A stretch of DNA of 40,159 nucleotides from an uncultured Bacilli bacterium. GTDB lineage: Bacteria > Bacillota_I > Bacilli_A > RF39 > UBA660. The notes below the pieces were generated by a model. That model searched no databases. It had not been told where the DNA came from and was given only the letters and a program-made list of their open reading frames with translations. Position 1 is the first letter of the stretch. Each line of letters opens with the position of its first letter. The stretch covers positions 1 to 40,159 of the forward strand of contig CANQZW010000010.1 in NCBI GenBank assembly GCA_947628435.1. Direction: 5' to 3'. The translations under genes and the position numbers were made by a program. This document shows, in pieces, positions 5,616 through 26,940 of the stretch.

Positions 5616-5644
5616 AAAAAAGCACTTGTAATTAAGTGCTTTTT
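5616..5644 (-). terminator. Terminator of the virD4 block
   Basis: Eleven-base-pair stem AAAAAGCACTT (5616-5626) / AAGTGCTTTTT (5634-5644). It overlaps the virD4 stop codon and ends the secretion locus. Confidence 0.75.
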
Positions 5645-8126: not shown

Positions 8127-8168
8127 AACTAACCTCCTGGTAAAAAAGTAAATAAATCTCAAAAACAT

Positions 8169-8197
8169 TATACCAAATATTTTAAATATTTGGTATA
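8169..8197. repeat. Perfect 14-bp inverted repeat upstream of virD4
   Basis: Arms TATACCAAATATTT (8169-8182) and AAATATTTGGTATA (8184-8197) are separated by one base. It lies in the 78-bp gap between the lipoprotein stop and the virD4 start. The following T tract on the minus strand is weak. It could be an attenuator, an mRNA processing site or a repressor operator. Confidence 0.7.
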
Positions 8198-8204
8198 ACT
8201 TTTA

Positions 8205-8936
8205 TTAATATTCTAATTTATTACTTTTATATTTTTTATATAATTTATTACTACCAAAGCCTAACCCTATTAATATTGCAATAATAACTACTATTTTTAA
8301 AATTAATTTAGCAACGTTTAAAACTTTATTTTTTCTTTCATACTTAACTTCATTTTCCTTTAATTTTGTTTTATCAATTTTAACATAAATTGATTTGTCA
8401 CCTGGCGTATATTTATCAAAATACCATGTATATACATTCTTTTTTATTGAATCTGCATTTGTTTCAAGTGCTTTAATAGGTAATTTTAAATTTAATTCTA
8501 CCTCATCTAATTTTGGCCAATCACTACAATCTTCACAATAAGGAATATAATTAGTATCATTTTTTATTTCATAATATTCATCTGTTTGAGTACACGATAT
8601 ATGTTTAAAAATATATTGATTAAATACGGTATCTTGAAAATAAGAGCATATATTTTCATAATCATTAGTGAACTTAGCTAATGCCATTTTTTCATCGTCT
8701 ATTTTTTCTTTAGTATATCCCCTATAATTTAATACGTATTTATATTTATCAAAATACATATTTATTACATCATTTACATTATCCTTATTATTGCTAATTT
8801 CATTAGAAGAAGTACCTATTGTTACTTCTTCTTTTACTTTTCCATAAGAATCCATAGTTACGTTAGATTTAGCGGTACAACCAGATAGCATCAACAAAAT
8901 AATTAAAATAAAACTATATTTTTTTAATTTTTTCAA
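8205..8936 (-). CDS. Lipoprotein with C-terminal membrane anchor, T4SS-associated, 243 aa
   Basis: Function unknown. A lipobox LMLSGC near residue 20 predicts lipidation, an extracellular domain follows (~21-205), and a membrane helix with a Lys-rich tail closes the protein (~208-243). The outside domain shows MDSYGKVKEEVTIG near its start, ENICSYFQ, and a conserved YTWYFDK motif before the anchor. It is paralogous to the next upstream gene, with the same length, lipobox, NICSYF/NLCDYF and YTWYF/YTWKF motifs, and terminal helix. The start codon is TTG, supported by GGGAGG six bases before it. It is cotranscribed with the multi-hydrolase and virD4, so a role in the secretion channel is likely but inferred. 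Confidence 0.85.
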   Translation of the reverse strand: MKKLKKYSFILIILLMLSGCTAKSNVTMDSYGKVKEEVTIGTSSNEISNNKDNVNDVINMYFDKYKYVLNYRGYTKEKIDDEKMALAKFTNDYENICSYFQDTVFNQYIFKHISCTQTDEYYEIKNDTNYIPYCEDCSDWPKLDEVELNLKLPIKALETNADSIKKNVYTWYFDKYTPGDKSIYVKIDKTKLKENEVKYERKNKVLNVAKLILKIVVIIAILIGLGFGSNKLYKKYKSNKLEY

Positions 8937-8946
8937 ATTATCCTCC

Positions 8947-9678
8947 CTAATAACTTAACTTGATTTTATTACGTCTTTTGCGTAAGAACATAATAATTAA
9001 AATAATTACTAATATTACTGATAAAATCAGTATGTAAATTGCACTAGATTCTTTTTTCTTGTTTTTTTTATAACTAGTAGAATTATTACCATAAAATTTC
9101 TTATCAGTTTTTATTTTAATATGAATAGATTTATCTAAATTATCTTTATTAAATTTCCATGTATAAATACCATTTTTAACATCATCAGCATTTTGTTTTA
9201 CAATATCAAAACTACTCTCGATAGAAAAACTAATATTATCAAAATTATCAACAACATAATTACTTGAGTTTGAATCACTAGAAAGTACATTAGAATTACT
9301 ACTTATTTCATAGTAACCATCTTTTTCTAAACAATTAACAGAACCATATAAATTTTTTATAAATAAAGATTTATTAAAATAATCACACAAATTATCATAA
9401 GTCTTATTTATTTGGGCACCACTTTCATCCATATTAGTATATGCCTTATAATTATAACCCTCATCATACAATTTATTTTCATATAAATCTAGTTGATTAT
9501 TAATGTGAGTAGTAATAGGCTCATCAAATGAAAAATAATATTCATTATCTGCATAAATTTTTAAAGATTCATTTGTCAATCCTGTATTTTCGATTAAAAT
9601 ACTTTCCTTTGCATCACACCCTGATAAAAATATCATCACAATAAATATAATCAAACCATATTTTATTCTTTTTCTCAT
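8947..9678 (-). CDS. Paralogous lipoprotein with C-terminal membrane anchor, T4SS-associated, 243 aa
   Basis: Function unknown. Lipobox IFLSGC (~residues 16-21), extracellular domain with NTGLTNESLKIYADNEYYF and NLCDYFNKSLF, a YTWKFN motif, then a membrane helix (~213-232) and basic tail. It is the paralogue of the downstream gene; the pair probably arose by tandem duplication and has diverged strongly. AGGAGG precedes the ATG. Gaps to both neighbours are about ten bases, so it is part of the hydrolase-to-virD4 block. Confidence 0.85.
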   Translation of the reverse strand: MRKRIKYGLIIFIVMIFLSGCDAKESILIENTGLTNESLKIYADNEYYFSFDEPITTHINNQLDLYENKLYDEGYNYKAYTNMDESGAQINKTYDNLCDYFNKSLFIKNLYGSVNCLEKDGYYEISSNSNVLSSDSNSSNYVVDNFDNISFSIESSFDIVKQNADDVKNGIYTWKFNKDNLDKSIHIKIKTDKKFYGNNSTSYKKNKKKESSAIYILILSVILVIILIIMFLRKRRNKIKLSY

Positions 9679-9687
9679 ATTAACCTC

Positions 9688-12600
9688 CTATTTTATAGGT
9701 TGAAGAAGATAAATATAACCTATAAAATCATGTGTGCCATATTTTTTAATTTGATTTAAAGTTAGAACATTAGTACTGAATTTTTCGCAATTTCTTTTAC
9801 ACCAATTACTTTGACCTACTAATACAGTACCATCATCATTTACTTTTTCAATTATTGCAACATGTCCATACGGGCTTCTTTCATCCCCATCCCATACAAT
9901 AACAGCTCCTGCTTGAGGTTTTGTATAATCATTACTTGTTTTAAACAGTTTTTTCATTCTACTAGGCTTAGTACGATCAGTACAAATTGTTGCATATTGC
10001 AAAGCACATTTTGCTCCTCCAAAATTTCGTTCACTCCATATTTTCGTGTATTTGTATCTATTAATAATACCATCATAGCCAACTTTAGCTGATTTTATTA
10101 TATCAATAGCTCTTTGCTCAACATATTCTATACATTGGCCTGAATGAACACCTGATTTTCTATTATTTGAAGCAAACTGACCATTTGTATTATCAACAGA
10201 TGTTGAACAATATTTCTCAACAATTTCTTTTGACTTACCACTAGTAAATGCAAACCATGCATGTCCTGGAGAAATCCAGCCATTAATAAAACTTGATAAA
10301 GAGTAAGTAGTATTATAAAATTCCCTATGATTAGGATCGCCAACATAAACTTTGCCTTCTGAGTTAATTTTTCTAATTACTATATAATGTCCTGAATTAG
10401 TAAACGGACTTGCAGAATTAACATTTGCAATTATTAATCCTCCACTTCTTAAAATAGTTTCGGCTTTTTGCAATCCTGCTTTATCTACACTTAATTGTTC
10501 ATATGTCAAACCGTGTTTTTTTGCAGCTGCTGAAAAATAAGCTGAGTTTGTACCTATAATTCCTGTTCCACAGTAATTACCACTATAAGCCTCATTCATA
10601 GTATCAACAGGTGTTATATTTTTTTCATCGGTTAAATTAGCTATTACCATTGCCATAGATGTAACACCACATCCAGATGTTTTTATACTACTACCATCTG
10701 TCCTGCCACAAAATGCATCAGTATAATCTTTTTGATCATAATAAACAAACGAATTATCAGGAATTCCGCATGATCCATCATTATTAACACCCTCACAGCT
10801 AAGAGGTGAAGACACCATTAAATTAGCCACATTATCTTGTATATTTATAACCTTATATGAACTATATTGATCAGCAATGATTGACATATAATCAGTTGAT
10901 TTAAAACTATTTAATTCAGTATGTGATAAGCATGTTCCTTTGCTACAAAAACTACATGAACCGCTTCTATCCTGACAATAAGCTCCAGCAGTTTTTTGAT
11001 TTTTATCATCATAAATGTAAACAGAACTTATCACATTCCAAGCCTCATCTAACTTTGATCTTGTTTGTTCATTTACTGGTTCCCTTTTTGCACTTGATTC
11101 ACTAACAATAGTTGCTCCGCTACTACATCCTATATCTATATCACAATAATCCTGATCGTTAGTATTTGCACGCATTTTTATTACATAATTACCATTTGAA
11201 TCTACCGTTGCTGTTCTTCTTCCTAAAGTGTAACTTTTTATTGCTAACATTTGTGCTTTTACCTTTTCAATATCAGAATTAGCATTAACTCCGATTTCTT
11301 CATATGCTACCCCTTTAACATATTTTTCAAAAGGAATTGGTTCAGAATACATACTTTCACAACTATCTATATCATTTTTACAGCTTGAAACTTTAACATC
11401 AATTAATACGTTACCTTTTAATAATTGATCAACCTCAACAGTACCCGCTGATTCATATGTAGATGAACAAGTTTTATTATCATAAAAATAATCAACAAAC
11501 CAATTCTTTTTCTCCATTAAATCTCTAACTATCGCTCTTGCAAGTTCTTCATAATCATCTTTATCAACTGATTTGAACATCTTTTTATAGCCATTGAAAC
11601 TTTCTCCTGAATAAGTCCAATAACCACCATCCCAATTAAAATATTCATTTAAAGCATCATAAAGTGCATCAGTATACTCCAATGAATCATCTTCATCATT
11701 GCTGGTAGTGGTCTGTTTATTAACAATATTATAATTAGGTTCTGTATTACCTCTATTAGCTTTGTTATATGAACTACTAGTATATCCAAAAGGATCCGAT
11801 GTTTTCGTAGGAAAAGTATAAAAAGTATAAATAGAACCATACCTATTATAAATAACGGTTTGATCTTGAACATAATTGTTATGATTTTTTAATTCACTTT
11901 TATTAGTTATTACTTCACCATTTGTTACTATTTTTTTTATATCATAAGAATTAAACCCACATGATATACAATCATGTTCATCCACATATGGTGGTAAAGT
12001 TCTATTGCCATTTAACAACACATCTTTAACAGCCTCCATTACTGAAGCACTTGGTGTTGCAAAACTTACTCCTGTATTCCACCATCCAGAATCTTTCACA
12101 TAATCGGCAATATTACCAAATTTTTTCCCAAATAATTCATATCTATTTGCTATTAATGATGCTTCCGCAGCCGCACCCTCAGCACTACCTTGTTCCCTTT
12201 GACATAGCTTTGCAATATATGTTATATCCTTATCACTTAAATTATCATATTTAGTGCCAGAAAAGGAATTAATTGGTGTTAAATAAGTTGTACCAGAAGA
12301 TGAGGTTGAATTTGTTTTACCATCAATAAGCTTCAATGCTTTTTTAAATTTCTTTCTTACACTTCTTCTTCTAAAAGGTTCCAAATATATATCATCATCT
12401 TCTTCATCAGACTCTTCTTTTTCTATATCATCACCAATATCTTCATCACCAACTTCATCTGATGGTTCTTCTTCGGCATCATTATTGTTATTATCTAAAC
12501 TAATTAATGAGTCAACGTTACCATCCCATAATGTATCAAAATACGGATATAAAACCGTAGCCATTGCTAATGTAGGATCAGCATTTGGATACTTATCAGC

Positions 12601-13824
12601 CAAATCCTGTAATTTTTTTAAGGTCTTTTGATCTACTTTTGAATAGTTTTTCTCTAAATTATCATCTTCTTTAACATCTCCACCTATTCCTGGTGAAAAA
12701 GTTGCGAATAATAAAATTAAACCGCCTATTATAATTACTATTAATAATATTATTGCACTCCAAGGCAAAGCCGATATAAATAATTTTATTAATCCTTGTG
12801 CTGCTTTTGCTGCACCTTTTGCGGCCACCTTTCCAGCTTTAGCTACCGTTTTACCTGCTTTTTTAGCACCATTAGCAACTTTTTTCCCTTTATCTACTGC
12901 ATTTTTTGCCTTATCTATAGATTGACCCAAATCACTATTTTTAAAACCGTTTTTAGCACCTTCTTTAGCATTATTAACCATATTTTTAGCATGATTTTTA
13001 GCACCATTTTTAATTCGATCCTTCATGTCTTTAGCGTTTTTAGGTCTGTTATCCCACTTGTTTTTTAAATCATCTCTTTTTTTATCTAAACCTGTTTTAG
13101 GTTGGGCATTATTATCACTTTGATTATTTTTCTTAGCATCATTATTACCGGATGAGCTATTAGGATTATTTAATTGTTCATTTTTATCATCAGCTTTATG
13201 TGGTTTATCAGAATTAGAACCATCTTTCTTATCATTTTGCGTTTCATCTGTCTTGGATTCATCTAGATTTTGATTAGTATTATCTTTTTTATCAGCGTTA
13301 TTTTGGGTGTCTTCATCTTTATTTTCGTCTTGATTAGTTTGGTCTTGATCACCTGATTCATCTAAATTTTTATCATCATTGACATTTTCATCAGAGTTAT
13401 CTTTGATACCTTCACTTTCGTTTTGATCAGTTTGGTTTTGATCACCTGATTCATCTGAATTTTTATCATCATTGACATTTTCATCAGAGTTATCTTTGAT
13501 ACCTTCACTTTCGTTTTGATCAGTTTGGTCTTGATCATCTAATTCATCTAGATTTTCTTCTTCATTATCAATTTCATCAGCGTTATCTTGAATGTCTTCA
13601 ATTTCGTTTTGATCAGTTTGGTCTTGATCATCTGATTCAACTAGACTTTCATCATTGTTATCTTGAGTATTTTCGTCTTCGTTTTCAGTTATAGCTGCAT
13701 CAGTTTGAAAACTTGAATTTATTTTTACATCTACTTTAGCATCGTCTATACTTAAATCTTCTATTTTAAATTCAAGTTCATCTTTTTCAAGCCCAGGCTT
13801 CTTATTATTCGGATTTTGGTTCAT
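9688..13824 (-). CDS. VirB1-like multi-domain cell-wall hydrolase of the T4SS, 1378 aa
   Basis: A very large wall-remodelling protein. Order: cytoplasmic acidic Asp/Asn/Gln-rich region with 31-residue tandem repeats (~50-200); basic Lys/Ala/Asn helix region (~245-345); one membrane helix (~353-376); extracellular acidic linker (~440-480); SleB-like hydrolase region (~528-670, IAKLCQREQGSAEG, ASLIANRYE); an unassigned region (~715-800); SpoIID/LytB-like domain (~825-1000, EKYVKGVAYEEIG, KAQMLAIKSYTLGRRTAT); a C39-like papain-fold domain (~1027-1195, Cys in TSGCGVTSMAMV, GHYIVI, GDPN); and a C-terminal CHAP domain (~1220-1378, Cys in SGQCIEYVEQRA, His in YGHVAII, GQSNW). GGTGG precedes the ATG. 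Its position between virB4 and virD4 makes it the probable channel-opening hydrolase. Hydrolytic activities are inferred from motifs. Confidence 0.88.
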   Translation of the reverse strand: MNQNPNNKKPGLEKDELEFKIEDLSIDDAKVDVKINSSFQTDAAITENEDENTQDNNDESLVESDDQDQTDQNEIEDIQDNADEIDNEEENLDELDDQDQTDQNESEGIKDNSDENVNDDKNSDESGDQNQTDQNESEGIKDNSDENVNDDKNLDESGDQDQTNQDENKDEDTQNNADKKDNTNQNLDESKTDETQNDKKDGSNSDKPHKADDKNEQLNNPNSSSGNNDAKKNNQSDNNAQPKTGLDKKRDDLKNKWDNRPKNAKDMKDRIKNGAKNHAKNMVNNAKEGAKNGFKNSDLGQSIDKAKNAVDKGKKVANGAKKAGKTVAKAGKVAAKGAAKAAQGLIKLFISALPWSAIILLIVIIIGGLILLFATFSPGIGGDVKEDDNLEKNYSKVDQKTLKKLQDLADKYPNADPTLAMATVLYPYFDTLWDGNVDSLISLDNNNNDAEEEPSDEVGDEDIGDDIEKEESDEEDDDIYLEPFRRRSVRKKFKKALKLIDGKTNSTSSSGTTYLTPINSFSGTKYDNLSDKDITYIAKLCQREQGSAEGAAAEASLIANRYELFGKKFGNIADYVKDSGWWNTGVSFATPSASVMEAVKDVLLNGNRTLPPYVDEHDCISCGFNSYDIKKIVTNGEVITNKSELKNHNNYVQDQTVIYNRYGSIYTFYTFPTKTSDPFGYTSSSYNKANRGNTEPNYNIVNKQTTTSNDEDDSLEYTDALYDALNEYFNWDGGYWTYSGESFNGYKKMFKSVDKDDYEELARAIVRDLMEKKNWFVDYFYDNKTCSSTYESAGTVEVDQLLKGNVLIDVKVSSCKNDIDSCESMYSEPIPFEKYVKGVAYEEIGVNANSDIEKVKAQMLAIKSYTLGRRTATVDSNGNYVIKMRANTNDQDYCDIDIGCSSGATIVSESSAKREPVNEQTRSKLDEAWNVISSVYIYDDKNQKTAGAYCQDRSGSCSFCSKGTCLSHTELNSFKSTDYMSIIADQYSSYKVINIQDNVANLMVSSPLSCEGVNNDGSCGIPDNSFVYYDQKDYTDAFCGRTDGSSIKTSGCGVTSMAMVIANLTDEKNITPVDTMNEAYSGNYCGTGIIGTNSAYFSAAAKKHGLTYEQLSVDKAGLQKAETILRSGGLIIANVNSASPFTNSGHYIVIRKINSEGKVYVGDPNHREFYNTTYSLSSFINGWISPGHAWFAFTSGKSKEIVEKYCSTSVDNTNGQFASNNRKSGVHSGQCIEYVEQRAIDIIKSAKVGYDGIINRYKYTKIWSERNFGGAKCALQYATICTDRTKPSRMKKLFKTSNDYTKPQAGAVIVWDGDERSPYGHVAIIEKVNDDGTVLVGQSNWCKRNCEKFSTNVLTLNQIKKYGTHDFIGYIYLLQPIK
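13347..13718 (-). repeat. 93-bp tandem repeats inside the multi-hydrolase gene
   Basis: About four units of 93 bp (31 codons) start at 13347, 13440, 13533 and 13626. The first two are nearly identical at DNA level; the others have drifted. They encode acidic QDQTDQNESEGIKDNSDEN-type repeats predicted to lie in the cytoplasm. Copy number may vary by slippage or recombination. Confidence 0.8.
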
Positions 13825-13839
13825 AAATACACCACCTAC

Positions 13840-13868
13840 ATTATATAGATTATAGAGTTATTATAACA
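13840..13868 (-). promoter_or_regulatory. Promoter region of the multi-hydrolase/virD4 block
   Basis: Three TATAAT elements on the minus strand (13860-13865, 13849-13854, 13840-13845). The first is an extended -10 (TGT-TATAAT, 13868-13860). It follows directly after the virB4 terminator, so this block has its own start of transcription. Confidence 0.55.
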
Positions 13869-13880
13869 TACTTAGGAATT

Positions 13881-13906
13881 AAAAAAAAGACGTCTTTCGA
13901 CATCTT
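13881..13906 (-). terminator. Terminator of the pilin-to-virB4 operon
   Basis: Eight-base-pair stem (AAGATGTC/GACGTCTT on the minus strand) with a GAAA tetraloop, followed by eight T. It overlaps the virB4 stop codon. Confidence 0.85.
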
Positions 13907-15701
13907 ATAGTCCTCCACCTGATCCAAATGAATCTAATTCTGGTTCTGTTACAACAACATCAATACGCATTCTTCTACTACCGCATACAAGTAAGGCCTC
14001 ACCTTGATTATATTTTTTTATACTTTCTTTTTCCTGCTCATTTAAGTCTATTAACTGAGCTAAATCCTCTACACCTTGCTTTTTTAATCCCATCACAAGA
14101 TAGTATGATGCGTTATCAAATATTGCTTTACCTTGCGTTATAACAGATGGATCTGCAAAATCACTTGGTTGTTGTGTTATAAGAATAGTACCACTATTAT
14201 ACTTTCTAGCTCGTCTTTGTATTTGGGCTAAGAAATCTGCACCTATTGTGTTATTACCAGAAAGTAATATGTGTGCTTCATCAACCATCATAATCGTATT
14301 TATTGTTCTATCTAAGCAGTGACTCCAAGCATACTTTAATATGTTAAAGAATAATGCATTTCTAATGTTTTCATCTGCGTTCATTAAATCTCTGATATTA
14401 AACACAATAAACTTTGTAGTTGGTCTTATCGTTGTATGGCCATCAAAATAAAACTTTAATTCTTTTACAAGAGGTCTAATTTTTAATTCTAGTCTCTCTA
14501 AAATATCTCTTTCATGAGTCATTTGGTCTCCATATGCTTCTAACCTTCTTACTAATGTTTCATAAAGATCTGAAAACGTTGGATACTGCTCTGGAGTTAA
14601 ATTAGAAAAATCAGTTTCAAAAGATATTCCGAAACGTTGATAAGTAAGTTGTGCCATCTCACTAAACATAGTAAGAACATCCTCAGTTATTGTAGGATCA
14701 TAATACTTCATAAACGCTTTTAAAAATTGTAAAGTTTTAGTTAATACGGTATAACCAAGTCCATCTTTTAAATCTTCCTCATCGGCCTCTAAAATAACCT
14801 CTAATGGATTAATCATACCAAACTCTCCACCTTTACCAAGGTCAATAAAGTCTCCATGCATACGAGATACCATCTCTTCTAATTCACCCTCAGGATCTAT
14901 ACAAACTACTTTATAATCATTTCTTATATGAGTTCTTAATAGAAGTTTAGCAGCAGTAGACTTACCACTACCAGTAGTACCTAAAATAATCAAATTGGCA
15001 TTGTTTCTATTAAACTCTTTTCTTATTTGATAAAGAAATTGGTTAAATAATACAACCCCTCCAGAAAAATCCGTTCCAAGAAGACATGATGGTCCAGGAT
15101 CTTTTAAACTGTCAAATATAAAAGGATACATAGCCGCTATGGTTGGAGATGTTATTGGTGTTCCAATTTGATCTTCTATATCCTGTTTTGGAAAAATAGG
15201 AATAATTGACTTAAGCACCTTTCTTTGTTCAAATCTAAGAGGTATAGCTGTTAGTTCCATTGTGGATAAGAAATTTTTGATTTGAAGTTTTTTCTGATCT
15301 AATTCTTCTTTACTATCCGCAGTTATAACAACGTGCATTTGAAAATCGAAAATTCTTGACTGATTTGTAGTAATCATTTGAATAAAATCATTTAATGAAT
15401 CATAATCTTGTCTTAATTGTTCTTGAACTGTTTTATCATTTTCCTTCTCATAATTTGCCTTTAACTCCGCAAGTTGTTTATTAAGCATTTTAGACATAAC
15501 AGAAAAAGGAAGAGGTATATGTTTTATTACAACTTTAACCCCTGGATTACTAGTTATACTAGATAAAAAACCAGGACTTATCCATTTAGGATAAGAAACA
15601 ACTGTTAAAATGGTACACCATTTATCACTGATTATAAACTCAGATGGTTTAAATTCCAGTCCTTTAGGAGCAAGCTCCTTTTTTATATTAATATTTGCCA
15701 T
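13905..15701 (-). CDS. virB4: VirB4-type T4SS ATPase, motor part (598 aa)
   Basis: A traffic ATPase that powers T4SS assembly and transport. The N-terminal ~200 residues are the rest of the VirB4 N-domain, then the RecA-like motor. Walker A is GTTGSGKSTAAKL (~241-253), with VVCIDPEGELEEM; Walker B is MMVDEAHILLSG (~471-482); RRARKYNSGTILITQQPSDF follows. The ATG shares its A with the stop of the upstream ORF (TAATG at 15699-15703), so the two are translationally coupled. In relatives the front ~180 residues are part of the same polypeptide, so this VirB4 is split in two. Confidence 0.93.
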   Translation of the reverse strand: MANINIKKELAPKGLEFKPSEFIISDKWCTILTVVSYPKWISPGFLSSITSNPGVKVVIKHIPLPFSVMSKMLNKQLAELKANYEKENDKTVQEQLRQDYDSLNDFIQMITTNQSRIFDFQMHVVITADSKEELDQKKLQIKNFLSTMELTAIPLRFEQRKVLKSIIPIFPKQDIEDQIGTPITSPTIAAMYPFIFDSLKDPGPSCLLGTDFSGGVVLFNQFLYQIRKEFNRNNANLIILGTTGSGKSTAAKLLLRTHIRNDYKVVCIDPEGELEEMVSRMHGDFIDLGKGGEFGMINPLEVILEADEEDLKDGLGYTVLTKTLQFLKAFMKYYDPTITEDVLTMFSEMAQLTYQRFGISFETDFSNLTPEQYPTFSDLYETLVRRLEAYGDQMTHERDILERLELKIRPLVKELKFYFDGHTTIRPTTKFIVFNIRDLMNADENIRNALFFNILKYAWSHCLDRTINTIMMVDEAHILLSGNNTIGADFLAQIQRRARKYNSGTILITQQPSDFADPSVITQGKAIFDNASYYLVMGLKKQGVEDLAQLIDLNEQEKESIKKYNQGEALLVCGSRRMRIDVVVTEPELDSFGSGGGL

Positions 15702-16240
15702 TATGCTAACACCGTCCCAAACTCAGTTTTATTTCCACCATTTAAGAAGTTATCTAGTATACTTCTTAAATCATCATTATTAGCTTGACTAGATGATAAT
15801 CCAGCATTAGCAAGACCATTAATCATAATTCTTATTTTCTTTTGAATCATTTCAACATTCTTATCCTTAAATAGAAAATAGAACTCAACATCAGATACAT
15901 CATCATTAAAATCATCAGCTTTACTCAAATCCTGGTTAATTAGTTTTCTTATAACTGGATTTTGAGCCCTATTATACATCATTTGAAGCTCTGCTATATA
16001 AACAGATATATCAACTGGTCTATCCGCTATAACAAGCCAAAATTCAAAATCTAAGGTGTTATAAAAATCTTTTAGACTATCTATAACGTTAAACTGTTCA
16101 TTTTCTTCCATTATAAATATGTTTTTAGGAGCTACTTTAACACCAGCCACCTTAAACCCACTATCAAGCTCTATCATGTTATTTATAATTGTTTTAACAG
16201 GAACAAAGCTTTCCGTAGTACCACTAGTCTTTGTACTCAT
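15701..16240 (-). CDS. Detached N-terminal domain of VirB4 (TraE/TrsE-like), 179 aa
   Basis: It resembles the first part of Gram-positive VirB4/TraE proteins: FVPVKTIINNMIELDSG, FKVAGVKVAPKNIF, DFEFWLVIADRPVDI, then ISVYIAELQMMYNRAQNPVI and a FYFLF strand. It lacks ATPase motifs. It stops one base into the virB4 start. Two starts are possible: ATG at 16240 (listed; the AAAGGA is rather far, 13 bases) or GTG at 16249 (AAAGGA four bases away). Both overlap the end of the prgI-like gene, implying coupled translation. Confidence 0.8.
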   Translation of the reverse strand: MSTKTSGTTESFVPVKTIINNMIELDSGFKVAGVKVAPKNIFIMEENEQFNVIDSLKDFYNTLDFEFWLVIADRPVDISVYIAELQMMYNRAQNPVIRKLINQDLSKADDFNDDVSDVEFYFLFKDKNVEMIQKKIRIMINGLANAGLSSSQANNDDLRSILDNFLNGGNKTEFGTVLA

Positions 16241-16538
16241 CTTTAGCACACCATCCTTTCCATACTAATTCATTTCTATCAACGAAATAAAAATTATATA
16301 TATTAATTAAAACACACAGTACGTTATGATAATTTGGTATTGGCATTACCAAAAAAGCACAAGAAAGAAAAGGTAAAAGTACTAATATCCCTAAAAATAA
16401 CGTATCAGGTTGAAATATCAAAAATAAGATAAACGTAACAACCGTACCACCACCTATTATTCCTAAATCAACCGGTCTAAAAACATTAAATATTAATTGG
16501 CCCCTTTTGGTATTAGCCGCTATTAAATATTGATTCAT
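16224..16538 (-). CDS. PrgI/VirB3-like inner-membrane T4SS protein, 104 aa
   Basis: A small protein with two adjacent membrane helices (~27-43 and ~47-66), an N-terminal cytoplasmic strand region (QYLIAANTKRGQLIFNVF) and RPVDLGIIGGG, as in the PrgI family, the Gram-positive counterpart of VirB3. VirB3 works with VirB4 and VirB6, which flank it here. AAGGGG precedes the ATG. It overlaps the next gene by 17-26 bases depending on the chosen start. Confidence 0.8.
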   Translation of the reverse strand: MNQYLIAANTKRGQLIFNVFRPVDLGIIGGGTVVTFILFLIFQPDTLFLGILVLLPFLSCAFLVMPIPNYHNVLCVLINIYNFYFVDRNELVWKGWCAKDEYKD

Positions 16539-16553
16539 AAATTATTCCCCTTT

Positions 16554-19007
16554 CTATTTTTTATCTTCACTTGGTTTTTTTATACCCTCTAGAGTTTTTT
16601 CAAGTTTAGATAACTCAATTGCAAGTGTTTGTTCTTTTTCAGTAGTAGTAGTACCCTTTATACCAGCAACAATAGGTTGAAGCTCATCAAAAGCAGATTT
16701 TAAATCATTCATAGACTCTCTAATAGTACTTAATTGTTTCTGTGAATCATCATAATCTTTTTCATACTTTTTTAAATCATCATATTTTTGTGTTAATAAT
16801 TTTTTTTGGTTTTCATTTGCTACATTACCCAATTCTGTTCCTATTTTCGTAATAGCGTTCTTAATTCCTGACATAGAACTTGCATCAATTTCCACTGATA
16901 TACCAGCACTAGATAACGAACTAGCTAAAGCTGAAGCCAGAACTTGAGCATTTTGTACTGTTGCATTTTGGGTAGAAAGAATTGACTGATAAGTTCCTGC
17001 TTGCTGCATGTATTGCTCTTGAGAATGAATTGAATTTGCAAGTGCATTACTTTGATAAGTATTAAACATTTTCTTAAGATTTTCAATGCCACCTGTTCCA
17101 CTAACATATAATTCATCGTTTAAATTTACATTAGACTTTGTTGGGTTACCATTTTCGTCAATAATATCTGCAATAAACTTACCATCTGAATCTCTTTTTT
17201 TAAGTGTTTCTTTTGTTTTAGCTAAATCATAACTTTTCGCACCAGTTGCTTCAAGATATTGTGCTAACACAGCTTCACCTTCAGATGCAGCTTTATAATT
17301 ATCAAATAGTTTTTTAGCATCACCATTACCTTCTACAATCTTACCTTTACCAAGACCTGCTTGATATTTTCCACCAGAATGGAATTTTGCATTTTTAGCA
17401 TCCTCAAGGGCTTTTCTTTTATCATATAATTCATTCGGATCACCAAAAACTCCTTCGACATTTGATGGTATATCTCTAATCCATTCTCCTGCCTTAGTAG
17501 TATTTTTGGTAAATGCTAAACGATCAGCCTTTTCTTTAGCAGCATCTTTGCCCCCTTTAAAGGCTCCTTTTAAATCATTTGATGCTAAACCTACTTTGCC
17601 TCCTGCTAAAGTACCAACAAATGCAGCAGCTCCAAATTGTTTAAGTGAATCACCTACTCCTACATTATTATCTCTATAAGCATCCCGTTTCATCTGTTTT
17701 AATGCCTTTTTCTTACTCATGTCAGCATACTTGTCTTTATTTGCTTCATAAACTGCATCTCTAGCTTCTCTTGCTTTTCTACCAGGCCCTCTTTTGTATC
17801 CTAATTCTTCTCTAGCAGCCTTTTTTTGAGCACGTCTATTTTGATTATTTTTATGAATCATCGAAGCCGCTCCTACAGCCGCACCAGCAGCAGCATGTCC
17901 TGCTGCAGTAAGAGCACCTCCGATTAAAGCTGCACTTCCAAGTTTCTTTCCTAATCCACCTATGCCAGTTCCTTCATCATCTACACCAATCATGTCTCCA
18001 ATCCACTTAGGAGCTTTTTTAGCAAATATTAGTATAGCAATTAAAATAACTAATGTACCCATGATTCCTAAACCTTTTATTTGTACATTTTGAGATAGAC
18101 TAATTAACATTATCATTAATTCTAAAACAGCAAGCTTTATAAATAAACTAGCGTAAGTTTTTCCAACAGTAGTTAACCATTTATGAAAAGGACCACTTTT
18201 AGCTGATTTAGGATCAATATAAGTTACAATAAATAGCGGTGCCACAATCTGTAAAAAAGCAAGTTCAACAGACCTTACGGCTATATCAATAGCCATGCCT
18301 AGTAAAACATACGTTATAAAAATACCAACAGCAAAAGTTACTAAATACATATAAGTATAAACATAAACTGTTTCACCATCATTTTTTATTGTTCTACCTA
18401 TATTTTTTATAAGAGTTGGCCATAATTTTTCATCACCATTTAAAACATTTTTATTGTATTCATCCACCGCAGTATAACATTTGCCTTCACAATTGTCATT
18501 CGCAACATATTTTCCATCTTTTAAAGTTGCTACTTGTTCATCGGGATGAATAAGGGCTTTTATAGCAATTCTTTGCATTGTTTTTCCCGGATCATCACCA
18601 CTTGTAATATTACTACCTGTAAAAACCTTTGATACATAATTACCTTCAACTATTACGCTTTGAACATGATATAACTCATGAAATAACATAGGTGTAAAAA
18701 TTAATAGTACAAACATAATTATTAAGTTACGTAAAACAGAACCAATACCAGTTTCTTTATCCGTTAATTTATCCGGATTTATTATAGCATTCACAAGTAT
18801 AAGTGCAATTCTAAACAAAGCAAAAATACTTATTATTATATAAGTATTATTCATAATAATTCTAATTGCTTTTTCATCAAAGATTGCTGCCTCAGATAAT
18901 ATTTTAATTAAATTATAAACATTATCAATAAGACCATAAGCAACAGAATCCAATAGTATAAGTATCGCTCTAAGTGGACTAAACCAACTTATTAATATTT
19001 CAAGCAT
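16554..19007 (-). CDS. VirB6/TrbL-like polytopic T4SS membrane protein, 817 aa
   Basis: The probable inner-membrane channel component. The N-terminal half has about six to seven hydrophobic helices (roughly 45-70, 88-108, 207-240, 245-265, 280-302, 312-332). An extracellular loop lies between the second and third (~112-205). The motif ISLSQNVQIKGLGIMG and an Ala/Gly-rich helix (~350-385) follow. The C-terminal half (~390-817) is soluble, Lys- and Gln-rich and coiled-coil-like. Membrane block plus long cytoplasmic tail fits VirB6-like proteins of Gram-positive conjugative systems. AGGAGG precedes the ATG. It lies nine bases after the pilin-like gene. Confidence 0.75.
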   Translation of the reverse strand: MLEILISWFSPLRAILILLDSVAYGLIDNVYNLIKILSEAAIFDEKAIRIIMNNTYIIISIFALFRIALILVNAIINPDKLTDKETGIGSVLRNLIIMFVLLIFTPMLFHELYHVQSVIVEGNYVSKVFTGSNITSGDDPGKTMQRIAIKALIHPDEQVATLKDGKYVANDNCEGKCYTAVDEYNKNVLNGDEKLWPTLIKNIGRTIKNDGETVYVYTYMYLVTFAVGIFITYVLLGMAIDIAVRSVELAFLQIVAPLFIVTYIDPKSAKSGPFHKWLTTVGKTYASLFIKLAVLELMIMLISLSQNVQIKGLGIMGTLVILIAILIFAKKAPKWIGDMIGVDDEGTGIGGLGKKLGSAALIGGALTAAGHAAAGAAVGAASMIHKNNQNRRAQKKAAREELGYKRGPGRKAREARDAVYEANKDKYADMSKKKALKQMKRDAYRDNNVGVGDSLKQFGAAAFVGTLAGGKVGLASNDLKGAFKGGKDAAKEKADRLAFTKNTTKAGEWIRDIPSNVEGVFGDPNELYDKRKALEDAKNAKFHSGGKYQAGLGKGKIVEGNGDAKKLFDNYKAASEGEAVLAQYLEATGAKSYDLAKTKETLKKRDSDGKFIADIIDENGNPTKSNVNLNDELYVSGTGGIENLKKMFNTYQSNALANSIHSQEQYMQQAGTYQSILSTQNATVQNAQVLASALASSLSSAGISVEIDASSMSGIKNAITKIGTELGNVANENQKKLLTQKYDDLKKYEKDYDDSQKQLSTIRESMNDLKSAFDELQPIVAGIKGTTTTEKEQTLAIELSKLEKTLEGIKKPSEDKK

Positions 19008-19016
19008 AGTAACCTC

Positions 19017-19391
19017 CTAAAAACAAATTTGCAATCCGAACCAACCAAATATAACACTTAATGCCCATGGTAAAGCAATTAATATAAGAGCTGCTACTAC
19101 TCTTTTTACCATATTATTAACACTCTTTTTTATAGCATCAGCATCACCGGAGGTCATAGCCTTTATAAAATCAATGGTTATTGTAACAATAAGAGCTAAG
19201 GGTACAATAAACACAACCCATTTCCAATACTTATGAATCAAATCAATAATATCTGTATCACATTTTAAATTCGATACTGTTTCGTTTGAAGTTGTTGTGT
19301 TATCTGCAAAAACTTTGCATGGCATAGTTATAAACGTTAATACCAATAACATAAATATTTCACTAAACTTTTCTTTAATATTTTTTCTCAT
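19017..19391 (-). CDS. VirB2/pilin-like small membrane protein with signal peptide, 124 aa
   Basis: A signal peptide (~residues 8-29, ending VFADN), a short outside segment with one Cys, then two membrane helices separated by a short basic loop (KAMTSGDADAIKKSVNNMVKR) and the end SVIFGWFGLQICF. The topology resembles VirB2/TrbC pilins. The ATG at 19391 is chosen because GAGGTG lies five bases upstream; the earlier ATG overlaps that site. It is the first gene of the operon that continues through VirB6, VirB3 and VirB4, and is paralogous to the next upstream gene. Confidence 0.75.
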   Translation of the reverse strand: MRKNIKEKFSEIFMLLVLTFITMPCKVFADNTTTSNETVSNLKCDTDIIDLIHKYWKWVVFIVPLALIVTITIDFIKAMTSGDADAIKKSVNNMVKRVVAALILIALPWALSVIFGWFGLQICF

Positions 19392-19432
19392 AAAACACCT
19401 CATGCACTATATACCTACTTTACCCTATATAC

Positions 19433-19461
19433 ATAATAACATTTTCTTTTGACTTTGTCAC
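19433..19461 (-). promoter_or_regulatory. Promoter of the main T4SS operon
   Basis: GTGACA (-35, 19456-19461), 17-bp spacer, TATTAT (-10, 19433-19438) with an upstream TGT extension. Confidence 0.65.
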
Positions 19462-19469
19462 TAATAAAA

Positions 19470-19529
19470 ATTAAAAAGTAATAGTTTTGAATATTGTAAT
19501 CTAACAACATTAACAAAACTACTACTTTT
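19470..19529 (-). terminator. Long-stem terminator after the first pilin-like gene
   Basis: Sixteen-base-pair stem with one G-U pair between 19514-19529 and 19474-19489, then a T-rich tract. It separates the first pilin-like gene from the rest, so that gene may be expressed at a different level. Confidence 0.7.
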
Positions 19530-19560
19530 ATTTTGATTAAAATAACTAATTTACTTATGT

Positions 19561-19914
19561 CTATTTTTCACTTACTCCCCAGTTATTATTTTGGTTAAAT
19601 AGACCACCAATTGTTTCATTTGCTTCTGCCCAGCAACCTTTCCAGTCACTATTACCAAACCATCCCATTATAACTGATACAATAAGTGGTATTAAAAATA
19701 CTACTACTGCCGATATAATTCTCTTAATAAGTGCTTGTTGATTCTTCTTAACTTCTTCATCCTTACCTGCAATAACTGCTTTCACTAAGTCAATTGTACC
19801 TAATACAATTAATATTACTGGTACTATCCATTGAACCATTTTAAGCACGAAACGAACAATAGATAGTAAAGGCAATAACCCTTCATAAGTTCCAGAACAT
19901 TCTAATATAAACAT
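19561..19914 (-). CDS. VirB2/pilin-like small membrane protein, 117 aa
   Basis: Two membrane helices (~20-46 and ~66-86) around a charged loop (VKAVIAGKDEEVKKNQQALIKR), then the conserved end SVIMGWFG and a Trp/Asn-rich tail. It is clearly paralogous to the 19017 protein (same KA/G-loop-KR layout and GWFG), but has no cleavable signal peptide. AGGAGG sits nine bases before the ATG. It has its own promoter and terminator, a pattern that suits a major subunit needed in excess. Confidence 0.75.
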   Translation of the reverse strand: MFILECSGTYEGLLPLLSIVRFVLKMVQWIVPVILIVLGTIDLVKAVIAGKDEEVKKNQQALIKRIISAVVVFLIPLIVSVIMGWFGNSDWKGCWAEANETIGGLFNQNNNWGVSEK

Positions 19915-21532: not shown

Positions 21533-22453
21533 TTATTCTTTATCTTTTACATTTATATTTAATAATAAATTATTTATTATAATTTTATCCTCTATTTTAT
21601 TTATACCAAATACTTTTTTACCCAAATCTTTAAGTGATGCTCCTACATGATATAACTTATTTTTATCTACTATTATGAACCTATCATGAAAGATATTAGT
21701 ATATCTTATTTTTATTTTTGGATACTGATTATTAAACTTTTCTATGTCCAGTTTTGTTATATTACTTTTTTTACTTGTTATTATGTATACAATCACATTT
21801 ATGTTTTTTTTAGTTAATACATCTAGTGTTTTTTTATCTACGTAATTATCTATTATTATAATTTCTTTAGTTGCACTTTTTATTATATCTATTAATAAGC
21901 TATAAGCATCGTATATTTCTCCATTATAAAATAACTTGCTTTTTAAATCTTCTTTTCTATCAAATTTATCAAATAACTCTTCTATTTTTATATCATGCTT
22001 TATTAACGTACTTTGTATATAATCAGTTTTATTTTCTATTGTTATTATCCTTTTAAATATATCTTTATTTTCATTTATTAATTTTCTCATTGATACAAAT
22101 GCATTCATTATATTTACGCTTACTCTTGCAGCATCTTTTGTTCTTAATACGCTTGATAACATTGCAACTTCTTACTTTATAAATACATATGGTAATGTTC
22201 TTTTCATATTTGCGGTTTCAATTTGAAACCGCAAATTGTACTTTTCCTTTATTACTTCATATTCATCTTGAGTTAACTGAAAATAAAAATTTCTCGGAAA
22301 TCTTTCCATGTTTCTTTTTACTGCTAAATTAATCGTTTTTGTACCATTTGTGCATCCATATAAAATAGCTAAATCACTATCTAACATAACTTGTTTTCCT
22401 CTTACATCATATATCAAATTTTTTATATTAACTTTTTCTTTTATTTCTAACAT
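21533..22453 (-). pseudogene. ORF6N-domain protein gene interrupted by an in-frame TAA
   Basis: A phage-type ORF6N (KilA-N-like) DNA-binding protein split by a stop. The first part (22453-22172) has VRGKQVMLDSDLAILYGC, NLAVKRNMERFPRNFYFQL, then LRFQIETANMKRTLPYVF. In relatives the next residues are TEQGVAM; here they read I-K-stop-E-V-A-M, all in one frame, with TAA at 22172-22174. Past the stop comes LSSVLRTKDAARVSVNIMNAF, a coiled coil, and a C-terminal PLD-like region (FHDRFIIVD, LYHVGASLKDLGKKVFG). Either a single nonsense change inactivated it or two separate polypeptides are made; the second part begins with ATG at 22162 but shows no clear ribosome binding site. Confidence 0.8.
22082..22235. 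repeat. Duplicated segment, copy A
   Basis: About 150 bp of the ORF6N gene, repeated 412 bp downstream at about 22494-22647 with few differences. It ends in the perfect palindrome 22209-22235 (13-bp arms TTTGCGGTTTCAA / TTGAAACCGCAAA). Confidence 0.85.
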
Positions 22454-22869: not shown

Positions 22870-22894
22870 AAAAATGCTTTATTTCTAAAGCATT
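22870..22894 (-). terminator. Terminator of the glycosyltransferase operon
   Basis: Stem AATGCTTTA (22873-22881) / TAAAGCATT (22886-22894), with seven T after it on the minus strand. Confidence 0.75.
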
Positions 22895-23891
22895 ATAAAC
22901 TTTTATATATTTTTTTTAATTTTTCTCCTATTATTCTTAAATCTCTTTGTTTAGCAACCTCATAAGATTGCTCACTAACACTAGGAAGCTTGCCATCAAA
23001 AAATAATTTGATTTTCTTTTCAAAATCATCAACGTCTTTTGCTTTATATACGTTTTTTCCATCAATAAGCCAATTATCAAAAATAGGTATGTCTCTTATG
23101 ATAGCATTTTGTTTACAAGCACAAGCCTCTATTATAGGAATTCCTTCTGTTTCTTCTAACGTTGGAAATAAATATAAATCTCCGCCATTCATCGCTTCTT
23201 TTATTACGTCTTGTTCAACGTATCCTGCAAACGTTAAATTATCAAGCTTAGTATTAACCGCTTTTCTTACCTTTTTAGTAGCTGCTATTAAAGGGCTATA
23301 CCCAAACCAAATGAACTTATATTCTGGAAGTCTTTTAGCAAGTTCTACGAAATCAACGATCCCTTTTCTTTCAATATATAAACCGATACCAAAAATTACC
23401 TTATCATCCTTTGAATATCCATATGTTTTACGAAATTTATCACCTAGCTTTTGATCTTTTTTAAAAAAATCTAATTCAATGCCATTTGATACGTCATAAA
23501 TTTTTTTATCTTCTAGACCTTTATATCCCTGTAATAGCTTTTTAGAATATAAAGTTGGGGTTATTATAACATCTCCTAAGCTATAACACTTAATTAGCCA
23601 TTTTTTAAATAATTTAGATGTTATTTTTGAAAAAATAAACCCATTTTTATAATCTTCTTCAGTAGAATGAGCATGGTAAACGATTTTTTTACCCTGTTTC
23701 TTTGCTTTTTTTGTAAAGAAGTATGATTTAGGAAAATACGTATTTATATGTAAAATATCATAATCATCTTTTGGATTTAAAGTATAAGAAACATTAGCGT
23801 ACTTTAAAGCCTTACACTGGTGCTTTATTGCTTTACCTAACCCAGATTTTCCAACTACCTTTAACCCCTCAGAATATAATAAAACTTTCAT
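22893..23891 (-). CDS. GT4-family glycosyltransferase, probably lipid glucosyltransferase
   Basis: A GT-B glycosyltransferase of 332 aa. Motifs: LYSEGLKVVGKSGLGKAI (N-terminal acceptor lobe), HAHSTEED, SNGIELDFF, GLYIERKGI, and the donor-binding EX7E motif in EETEGIPIIEA. It resembles the enzymes that glucosylate diacylglycerol in Bacillota and Mollicutes; the acceptor is inferred. Its ATG is one base after the stop of the four-helix membrane protein gene (TAA-A-ATG), so the two are translationally coupled and share the transcript downstream of the large RNA gene. Confidence 0.85.
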   Translation of the reverse strand: MKVLLYSEGLKVVGKSGLGKAIKHQCKALKYANVSYTLNPKDDYDILHINTYFPKSYFFTKKAKKQGKKIVYHAHSTEEDYKNGFIFSKITSKLFKKWLIKCYSLGDVIITPTLYSKKLLQGYKGLEDKKIYDVSNGIELDFFKKDQKLGDKFRKTYGYSKDDKVIFGIGLYIERKGIVDFVELAKRLPEYKFIWFGYSPLIAATKKVRKAVNTKLDNLTFAGYVEQDVIKEAMNGGDLYLFPTLEETEGIPIIEACACKQNAIIRDIPIFDNWLIDGKNVYKAKDVDDFEKKIKLFFDGKLPSVSEQSYEVAKQRDLRIIGEKLKKIYKSL

Positions 23892-23892
23892 T

Positions 23893-24486
23893 TTAAGTAT
23901 CCTTTCTTTTAAAAATACTAATTAACTTAGCAAACTTAAAAACTATTACATCACTTTTATTAATTGCATAACTTTTACCCATGGCTTTACCTCCAATTGT
24001 TAAAGCTGCTATTAAAGCGGTTAATACTAAAGTTACTACCGCCATGTTAATATTAAACTTTACCGCAATATTCTCTGATATAAGAATACCAATAGATCCA
24101 GATATTATACCACAAACATCACCAATAACATCATTGCAAAAAGCTGATACTTTTTCTGCATTATGAATTAAATTTATTGCAGTTTTACTTCCCTTTATCT
24201 TCTTTGATGCCATTGAATTAAAAGGTTTTAAATCTGATGCGGTTACCGCAACTCCTATCATATCAAATAATACACCAATAACTATTATTAAAATAACAAT
24301 AATAATTCCAATAATAACGCTTAAGCTAGATACTACGTTTTGGGTTAAGCATGAAATAAATAAAGATATTAAAAAAGCACAAAAAGTAATTGTAACTACC
24401 CATTTCATATCTATTAAACGTCTAGGTATTTTATCTATTTTTTTTATCTTTTTTTCATATTTTTCATTAAAAGACTTTACTTTCAT
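23893..24486 (-). CDS. Four-helix membrane protein, CorB-like annotation; candidate OapA
   Basis: 197 aa. A basic N-terminus (~1-25), four membrane helices (~27-49, 51-80, 121-143, 145-170), and between helices 2 and 3 a conserved-looking cytoplasmic segment: FDMIGVAVTASDLKPFNSM, ASKKIKGSKTAI, NAEKVSAFCNDVIGDVCGI. Small proteins of this type are often annotated as Mg/Co transporter CorB-like. As I recall, OapA, the membrane partner of OLE RNA, is a similar small four-helix protein encoded just downstream of the RNA, and OLE complexes are linked to Mg homeostasis. This gene lies downstream of a ~600-nt structured RNA in the same direction. The OapA assignment is inference. Confidence 0.6.
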   Translation of the reverse strand: MKVKSFNEKYEKKIKKIDKIPRRLIDMKWVVTITFCAFLISLFISCLTQNVVSSLSVIIGIIIVILIIVIGVLFDMIGVAVTASDLKPFNSMASKKIKGSKTAINLIHNAEKVSAFCNDVIGDVCGIISGSIGILISENIAVKFNINMAVVTLVLTALIAALTIGGKAMGKSYAINKSDVIVFKFAKLISIFKRKDT

Positions 24487-24508: not shown

Positions 24509-24533
24509 AAAAGGAAAAATTAATTTTCCTTTT
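24509..24533 (-). terminator. Hairpin with T tract between the coiled-coil and four-helix genes
   Basis: Stem AAAAGGAAAA (24509-24518) / TTTTCCTTTT (24524-24533). It overlaps the end of the upstream gene; it could terminate or only attenuate. Confidence 0.55.
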
Positions 24534-25095
24534 GTTTATTAATATAAAAGTTAACCGTTCTTTCTAAAGGATTTTCGTTACTTACCTCTTTTTTGTTCTC
24601 TTCAAAACATACGTCCACTACTACGTTTTTTCTTTCTAGTAATTTATTATATTCATTTTTTACCGAAACTAACTCAGTTTGATACTTTAACAAACTATTA
24701 ACACACGCATCTAAATCATTATACCTTTTTCTTTTTTCCTTTTTATTAGTAGTAAATATCCCAACGTTTATACTCTCTTTTTCAATTATAAACTTACTAA
24801 TTATGGTTTCCACATCATTTACTATGTTATCAATATCATCTATATTATCACTTATCTTTTCATCAGAAAAATTATTTATAATAAGCATCTTATTTATTTC
24901 TTTAGCTATTTTATCTACCTTATCTGATAAAAGATTAACATCCTTTTCTATTACGCTTTTCAATGCGTTATTAAAACCTTCAGAAGCAATTATAGTTTTT
25001 TTAGAATCTAACTCATCTTTGTTAGATATTTTAGATAAATTTATTTTTTCACTACCTAAACTATAAAACTTTATTTTGGAATTAGTATCGCTCAT
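24520..25095 (-). CDS. Hypothetical soluble coiled-coil protein, 191 aa
   Basis: Not recognised. No signal peptide or membrane helix. Charged helices predominate, with coiled-coil heptads around residues ~45-110 and ~130-160. A basic patch KKEKRKRYNDLD lies at ~117-128. The start has AGGAGG eight bases upstream. It lies 46 bp after the terminator of the large RNA gene and before the four-helix protein, with no strong promoter of its own visible, so it may depend on read-through from the RNA promoter. It is a candidate extra partner of the RNA, by position only. Confidence 0.75.
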   Translation of the reverse strand: MSDTNSKIKFYSLGSEKINLSKISNKDELDSKKTIIASEGFNNALKSVIEKDVNLLSDKVDKIAKEINKMLIINNFSDEKISDNIDDIDNIVNDVETIISKFIIEKESINVGIFTTNKKEKRKRYNDLDACVNSLLKYQTELVSVKNEYNKLLERKNVVVDVCFEENKKEVSNENPLERTVNFYINKQKEN

Positions 25096-25140: not shown

Positions 25141-25167
25141 AAAAAGATTGTACATAAATACAATCTA
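25141..25167 (-). terminator. Terminator of the large RNA gene
   Basis: On the minus strand AGATTGTA and TACAATCT pair around a short A/T loop, then TTTTTATTTT follows. Confidence 0.8.
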
Positions 25168-25740
25168 AAATGGGTGGAATCTTTCATGACAAACTTTGCG
25201 TCTTAGGTCAAGTTGGATTTCCCGAAACCCCACCTTCTGTTACCATTAGGCTGTTCCCATTTAAGAGGTAGCATGCTTCCTTACGGGTAAGCATTACTTG
25301 ATTACCACTTAGTACGCACTGCAATTTCATGAATTCTACAGTCTAGGAAATTTCTTCAAATGAATATGTCACTATTAGCTCTTTTTTGCAAGAAAAATTT
25401 CAAGTAGCAATAACACTTAATCTATGCCTAGAATAAATGTCTGATCTACAATCCCAATATTCTCACTCAAGGCAAGCTACACTACTCATAGCGCAAGCCA
25501 CATAGTAGGTTTAATCTTAAGCCGTACAAAGTCAAATGCCCTGCACGCACTTAAGTCTCCGCGTATTGATGGGTCTTTATAATCTGTATGCCATTACAGC
25601 CAGCCCAGCAAACTCATATCCAGCACTCACCCCAATCTGGGCGAATGAAGCAAGCACAAGACGTTTCACAGGTATGCTCTTTAACGGATTTTTAGGCCCG
25701 TCCTCATAGTGCAATTCAAACTAGAATACTGCTCCACGGA
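25141..25740 (-). ncRNA. Large structured non-coding RNA, ~600 nt, OLE-like
   Basis: No ORF of note, clearly higher G+C than its surroundings, a consensus promoter and a terminator. On the minus strand I can pair several helices: a 9-bp hairpin CAUUCGCCC/GGGGUGAGUG near 25620-25650; CUGUA/UACAG around AUGGCA; CGCUA/UAGUG with a UGAG loop enclosed by GGC/GCC; nested AAG-GGUA / UACC-CUU around UGCUU/AAGCA near 25260-25310; and GGGUUU/AAAUCC near 25225. Conserved RNase P, tmRNA and SRP motifs were not found. Size (~600 nt), ornate structure and a CorB-like four-helix gene downstream favour OLE RNA; ROOL is the main alternative. Confidence is high for a structured RNA gene, moderate for OLE. Confidence 0.82.
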
Positions 25741-25745
25741 TAATA

Positions 25746-25774
25746 CTTATATCATATTTTATTAAAGTTGTCAA
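25746..25774 (-). promoter_or_regulatory. Strong promoter of the large RNA gene
   Basis: Consensus TTGACA (25769-25774), 17-bp spacer, TATAAG (25746-25751) with a TGA extension. Predicted RNA start is about 25739. Confidence 0.85.
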
Positions 25775-25833: not shown

Positions 25834-26940
25834 TTAATTTTTTTTTATATCATTTTTATCATTTTCTTTTATAACATGTTTTTTTAATACATCAGGTACT
25901 TTAAGATGTATCTTTGCCTTATCCGTTAATATATCAGTTGTTAATACTAACCAAATTATTAAAATCATTATAACAATATAAATTATTAATCCTGCTTTTT
26001 TATCTTTTAAAACATAAAAAATAGATGCTAATGAAAATAATAAGCTTACTGCGTATATTATTAAAACGGTTGTTTTCTGTGAAAACTTTTTATTTAATAA
26101 TTGATGATGGATATGCTGTTTATCCGCAATATAAATAGGCTTTTTATGTATTATTCTTCTTATTATTGCAAATAACGTATCAAGTATTGGAATTGCTAAT
26201 ATAAGCATTGGAACAACAAGTGAGGTTAACGTTACTGCTTTAAATCCCATTAGACAAACAACTGCTATCATAAATCCTAAAAACATCGAACCCGTTTCAC
26301 CCATAAATATTTTAGCAGGATGAAAGTTAAATATTAAAAATCCTAAACAAGCACCTAACATTATAAAGGTAATGGTTATCTCTAAACTACCTATATTATG
26401 CATGATAAATGCTATAACACCTATCGTTGCAAAAAAGATAGTTGAAATTCCACAAGCTAACCCGTCTAATCCATCAATAAAATTAATGCAATTCATAAGT
26501 GCAACTATAAATATAACGGTAAGTGGGTATGAAAAAATTCCAAAATCAAAATAAAGACCAAAAAAAGTTATATCATTAAGTAATATTTTTCCATAAAAGG
26601 TAACTACTAAAGCTGCAATTATCTGCCCTATTAGTTTTTCTTTTGCAGTTAATGGCTTTATATCATCAATCATACCAGTTAAAATAACAATGAATCCAGA
26701 TATTAATATTGCAAGCATTTGCGTACTTTGTGGTGCAAAACACATATAACCAAATAAAAAACCAAAAAACATCATAAGCCCGCCAAGTAATGGCATTGGT
26801 TTTTTATGAACTTTTCTTTCGTTTGGATAATCTAGTGCGTTTACGTGATTAGAAATCCACTTTACTATTGGATAAAAAATGCTAGTCATAAAAGTTACTA
26901 ATATAACTATTTGTAATACTAAAATTATTTTATCTTTCAT
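25834..26940 (-). CDS. tagO: TagO/WecA-type undecaprenyl-phosphate sugar-1-phosphate transferase
   Basis: A polytopic membrane enzyme that moves a (GlcNAc) sugar-1-phosphate onto the C55 lipid carrier, the first step in teichoic acid or related glycopolymer synthesis. 368 aa, about 10-11 helices. Motifs: YPNERKVHKKPMPLLGG, GMIDDIKPLTAKEKL (Asp pair), NCINFIDGLDGLACGIS, FNFHPAKIFMGETGSMFLG, and KQHIHHQLL. The MGETGS motif has Glu where most relatives have Asp. GGTGAT lies before the ATG. It uses the UppS product, and the glycosyltransferases upstream would extend the lipid-linked sugar. Confidence 0.92.
   Translation of the reverse strand: MKDKIILVLQIVILVTFMTSIFYPIVKWISNHVNALDYPNERKVHKKPMPLLGGLMMFFGFLFGYMCFAPQSTQMLAILISGFIVILTGMIDDIKPLTAKEKLIGQIIAALVVTFYGKILLNDITFFGLYFDFGIFSYPLTVIFIVALMNCINFIDGLDGLACGISTIFFATIGVIAFIMHNIGSLEITITFIMLGACLGFLIFNFHPAKIFMGETGSMFLGFMIAVVCLMGFKAVTLTSLVVPMLILAIPILDTLFAIIRRIIHKKPIYIADKQHIHHQLLNKKFSQKTTVLIIYAVSLLFSLASIFYVLKDKKAGLIIYIVIMILIIWLVLTTDILTDKAKIHLKVPDVLKKHVIKENDKNDIKKN

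Follow-up and report, generated by a model that had tools for sequence, protein, structure and literature searches.

OLE is a large bacterial RNA that acts at the cell membrane together with the protein OapA. Cryo-EM work has described a symmetric kissing loop at L9.3 that covaries among GGCC, GAUC and AGCU, and a k-turn that forms in OLE RNA alone (PMC12286853). Fernando and Breaker described in 2024 variant OLE RNAs from RF39 and TANB77, two clades of gut bacteria in which OapB and OapC are mostly missing, and kept such species out of their profiling (PMC11332333). Shortened OLE from gut bacteria whose genomes are very small was thus already on record, and the RNA described here is in itself ordinary. 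The departures at this locus, as read from sequence, are that a gene which we call p191 splits OLE from oapA, and that neither the customary helper protein OapC nor MpfA, proposed as a stand-in, is present.

The locus lies in a window of 40,159 nucleotides, the whole stretch of DNA analysed, from an uncultured Bacilli MAG of the RF39 lineage with a genome of 0.98 Mb (979,941 bases in 28 contigs). An earlier note, made from the letters of the window, had proposed an RNA gene of about 600 nt on the minus strand, probably OLE, and suggested Infernal with Rfam models as the way to check it. In that same test, a cmscan search of the window against Rfam 15, the RNA proved real and the assignment correct: RF01071 (OLE) matched at 25158-25753 of the minus strand with 361.2 bits (E-value 1e-102; gathering score 50), and the model was covered end to end (positions 1-616 of 616). 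At this site no other Rfam RNA exceeded its gathering score, including RNase P, tmRNA and other housekeeping RNAs, a match to which would have spoken against the proposal. The only other Rfam RNA in the window was a tRNA-Leu, and the host genome contains a single OLE copy. Congener copies scored 365-386 bits against RF01071, and OLE members across the family grade smoothly up to 437 bits. We consider it almost certain that the RNA is a bona fide OLE of reduced-genome gut Bacilli, probably folded as OLE and held at the membrane by OapA. The expectation that an OLE here would extend the range of this RNA was overtaken, because the variant OLE RNAs of RF39 and TANB77 appeared in 2024 (PMC11332333).

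The consensus promoter, terminator, lack of an ORF and raised G+C that the earlier note had pointed out were all recovered. A sigma-A type promoter with an extended TG, TTGACA-17-TATAAG (25746-25774, minus strand), matches 11 of 12 consensus letters, and our looser promoter scan found just six sites of this grade over both strands of the window. Behind the RNA, an intrinsic terminator-like hairpin of nine pairs (-8.4 kcal/mol) runs into a T-run at 25166-25136 (minus strand); its sequence, TTATGTACAATCTTTTT, is identical in five of five aligned congeners, among which promoter and terminator are both kept. The generic promoter and terminator scan reported neither signal, in the case of the promoter because it demands a final T, and the looser scan found both. 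Transcription probably begins around 25739, which would make about 14 positions at the head of the Rfam match part of the promoter. The longest open stretch in the region is 62 codons and runs antisense, and the G+C content of 40% (27.5% for the window) tops all 596-nt stretches sampled. OLE would have a promoter of its own to start transcription and a terminator of its own to stop it.

Many hairpins had also been listed as evidence. As evidence this did not hold, since the folding energy resembles that of shuffled sequence (z -0.71, with 27 of 100 shuffles equally good), but the structure itself was borne out by covariation. Pairs were taken from the Rfam covariance model and projected onto a MAFFT alignment, built without structure, of 36 family OLE sequences. 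In this test, which is somewhat biased toward the model because the sequences were recovered with it, 98 of 147 pairs had changes on both sides, and 790 double-change cells were observed against 262 in shuffled alignments and 138-225 in controls with the 3' partner slid. Paired cells made up 89.2% of the OLE alignment, compared to 75.8% (shuffled) and 37-47% (slid). Conserved pairing in relatives, whose lack would have counted against the proposal, is thus present far above both controls. A distinct RNA class that is only partly OLE-like might leave ten model pairs opposite gaps and make 17 of the 149 aligned pairs non-canonical, as in this copy, where the other 132 are canonical. The end-to-end match, the presence of the partner OapA and the smooth series up to the 437-bit members speak against such a class, and the covariance-model match, family grading and covariation refute it, leaving this fallback of the earlier note practically no probability. 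The alignment of six congeners has a mean column identity of 92% and keeps the core letters. The k-turn letters at the base of P5, UGAA in J4a/5 and GAG in J6/7, occur in 36 of 36 sequences (a statement about letters, not geometry). The L4 A-tract UAAAAA of the A-A dimer bridge is found in 35 of 36, and the letters of bridge B1 are retained.

The P9.3 hairpin lies at approximately 25411-25440 (minus strand), and its tip, UAGGCAUA (25430-25423), is the site of a GGCC-type kissing loop elsewhere. The loop reads GGCA, which is not palindromic, in each of the six congeners that have this locus, and the stem beneath it varies. The loops of relatives include GGCC and AGCU, plus GUAC and GCGC. A self-complementary tetramer was detected automatically in 75 of 93 L9.3 loops, compared to 43.7 expected from shuffled loops, with the automatic location wrong in about 12 of the 93 sequences; these loops we inspected by eye. 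The exceptions left after this reading were the six GGCA congeners, Clostridium akagii (GGCG) and locus L037, the closest relative outside the genus, where the hairpin is absent. Two congeners with short OLEs lack P9.3 as well. Both the GGCA loop, set against self-complementary tetramers in nearly all others, and these losses of P9.3 would suit an OLE that in this genus is a monomer, or a dimer without the L9.3 bridge (B3). We regard this as somewhat less likely than not: GGCA could pair with itself as G-A, G-C, C-G and A-G, and with symmetric UA/UA on its flanks the loop may still kiss; the letters of B1 are also kept.

The earlier note had argued that a downstream gene for a four-helix, CorB-like protein favours OLE, and this argument was sound. 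The gene (23893-24486, minus strand; 197 aa) is oapA, for the CNNM/DUF21-like OLE-associated membrane protein A, as indicated by homology, fold and co-occurrence with OLE. Its match to CNNM reaches 23.2 bits, under the Pfam cut-off of 28.4, and the same weak match recurs in eight of eight congener copies. An AlphaFold2 model (pLDDT 82, pTM 0.70) aligned with the MtCorB membrane domain at Z 14.6 (rmsd 2.2 over 130 residues) and with bacterial CorC at Z 12.6, while the first unrelated fold scored 8.0. Foldseek by itself gave an E-value of only 4e-3. A PDB sequence search with OapA returned no match; it was the comparison of folds that brought out the likeness to CorB. The best 80 relatives in a search of genome contigs include OLE-neighbouring OapA of Clostridium, Acetobacterium, Haloimpatiens and many uncultured Bacilli. 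Outside the genus, OLE and the OapA homologue lie on the same strand in 101 of 101 loci with both, no more than 200 bases apart in 96 of them. The 197-aa protein is OapA, by its model a predicted CorB-like four-helix membrane protein.

Because this gene is oapA, OLE keeps its usual neighbour. The earlier remark that the RNA lies away from its usual neighbours was mistaken, as oapA sits one gene further on. Elsewhere oapA directly follows OLE; here the two are separated by p191, which encodes a 191-aa protein (24520-25095, minus strand). We found no support for p191 as an OLE partner: all 18 congeners have it, with OLE or without, and beyond the genus it did not turn up next to OLE. Upstream of OLE is a TagO/WecA-like glycosyltransferase (25834-26940, minus strand; PF00953, 134.6 bits; TIGR02380, 136 bits, below cut-off). 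A gene for an IagA/BgsA-family glycosyltransferase of the LTA glycolipid anchor (22893-23891, minus strand; NF053513, 466.6 bits, cut-off 460) starts 1 nt past oapA, probably in one operon with it, and an undecaprenyl-diphosphate synthase is encoded further downstream on the same strand. The company of LTA glycolipid-anchor and undecaprenyl enzymes in the OapA operon hints at a link with the supply of membrane and cell-wall lipids. The order in six congeners is wecA-like, OLE, p191, oapA, iagA. The wecA-like gene of OLE-less congeners is followed by p191 and iagA, in several of them with another small gene before p191. In several OLE-less congeners (L024-L028, L030, L031), a gene of 145-170 aa with, by eye, a J-domain-like N-terminus occupies the exact OLE site.

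Two further congeners, G003 and G012, have their OLE (491-494 nt, 225-232 bits) at a different locus, where it precedes an RlmN-like gene and a divergent oapA with some 40% identity to the main one. This second lineage of about 490 nt (L008 1501-1994 in G003, L007 1501-1991 in G012) is possibly a separate acquisition, and none of the 18 congeners carries both forms. Elsewhere in the window, an ORF6N-domain gene, probably a mobile-element remnant, adjoins iagA (22172-22453, minus strand; short), as it does in a second congener (L025 1-423). A conjugation or type IV secretion-like block at 5643-19914 (minus strand) contains a coupling protein (T4SS-DNA_transf, 200 bits), a VirB4-like ATPase, a TrbL-like membrane protein, pilin-like proteins and a 1378-aa SpoIID/C39/CHAP cell-wall hydrolase.

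OLE was found in 186 of 291 sampled family genomes and in 112 of 150 genera. Both OLE and OapA were present in 183 genomes, OLE only in three, OapA only in six and neither in 99. Thus, 183 of the 192 carriers of either have both, and OapA accompanies 183 of 186 OLEs (Fisher p 5e-66, ignoring shared ancestry). In the six genomes with OapA and no detected OLE (G102, G104, G166, G230, G271 and G277), the RNA may have been missed or lost at contig ends, or OapA could act alone. Within the genus, OLE and OapA occur in the identical eight of 18 congeners, and the deep nodes of the genus tree are too weak for counting gains and losses. The ten congeners lacking OLE might indicate a lineage that is losing the RNA, with this copy a decaying, non-functional pseudogene; the non-palindromic L9.3 loop would agree, as would a score short of the 390 bits that mark the 'full-length' class in the 2024 paper, though that class was set with another model (PMC11332333). 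Decay is nevertheless very improbable considering that promoter, terminator, an intact oapA and the core letters are kept in six congeners, alongside the high column identity and the large majority of canonical pairs given above.

We next turned to other proteins linked to OLE. L7Ae-type OapC (PF01248) scored over the cut-off in none of the 18 congeners and none of the 291 genomes, while Bacillus subtilis and other controls were detected. bS21 (PF01165) is present in the host genome and in 261 of 291 family genomes. The invariant k-turn letters without an L7Ae-type OapC fit a k-turn that forms in the RNA alone (PMC12286853). The CorC_HlyC domain (PF03471) was found in 0 of 291 family genomes and in 11 of 14 controls. 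Full MpfA occurs in none of the 291, and therefore MpfA, by its 2024 definition, does not compensate for OLE loss here. We rejected the reading that the absence of PF03471 means the absence of a CorB-type exporter, as eight of 18 congeners encode a 342-aa CNNM-CBS protein that lacks CorC_HlyC. It occurs in four of eight OLE-bearing and four of ten OLE-less congeners, and there is therefore no anticorrelation. One such shortened CorB-type protein is encoded at G000:C7:3647-4219 (L145).

For the OLE reading that we favour, the RNA would probably adopt the OLE architecture, with OapA holding it at the membrane, and the particle would have to work without an L7Ae-type OapC in the host lineage, where bS21 is at hand. 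That it sits at the membrane, dimerises and serves in Mg2+ and envelope stress is extrapolated by analogy from Halalkalibacterium halodurans, one distant model species, and seems reasonably likely to apply. We propose only tentatively that across the family OLE makes up a stripped-down RNP with OapA, which does without OapC and for which MpfA does not step in after loss, that the L9.3 contact has been rebuilt or abandoned in this genus, and that selection keeps the RNA-intrinsic k-turn rather than its protein. About one third of family genomes lack the RNA and OapA jointly, even inside one genus, and a family of this kind, with small genomes and no MpfA, offers a clean natural comparison for OLE function. 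Because species with variant OLE were left out of the 2024 profiling (PMC11332333), our comparisons add to it: replacement by MpfA fails to explain the loss of OLE in this family, and the k-turn is kept without its known binder.

With the full-length OLEs of H. halodurans and Clostridium acetobutylicum, this RNA has in common the whole model, the core and k-turn letters, the L4 A-tract and OapA. It differs from them in its score of 361 bits, the order ole-p191-oapA instead of ole-oapA, some shortened stems, the GGCA loop at L9.3 and the missing L7Ae-type OapC. OapA shares the CNNM membrane fold with MpfA, CorB and CorC, Mg2+ exporters of CNNM-CBS-CorC_HlyC architecture, whereas the CBS and CorC domains of those proteins are absent from it; the separate 342-aa CNNM-CBS protein of the host genome likewise has no CorC_HlyC. 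This RNA also resembles the variant OLE RNAs of 2024, which likewise occur in reduced-genome, uncultured gut Bacillota with OapA, no OapC and a shortened RNA (PMC11332333). The score would fall in the 310-390 'variant 1' bin of that paper, although the bins rest on a different model (PMC11332333). Compared to those variants, this genus has six congeners with a form of about 590 nt split from oapA by p191 and two with a form of about 490 nt.
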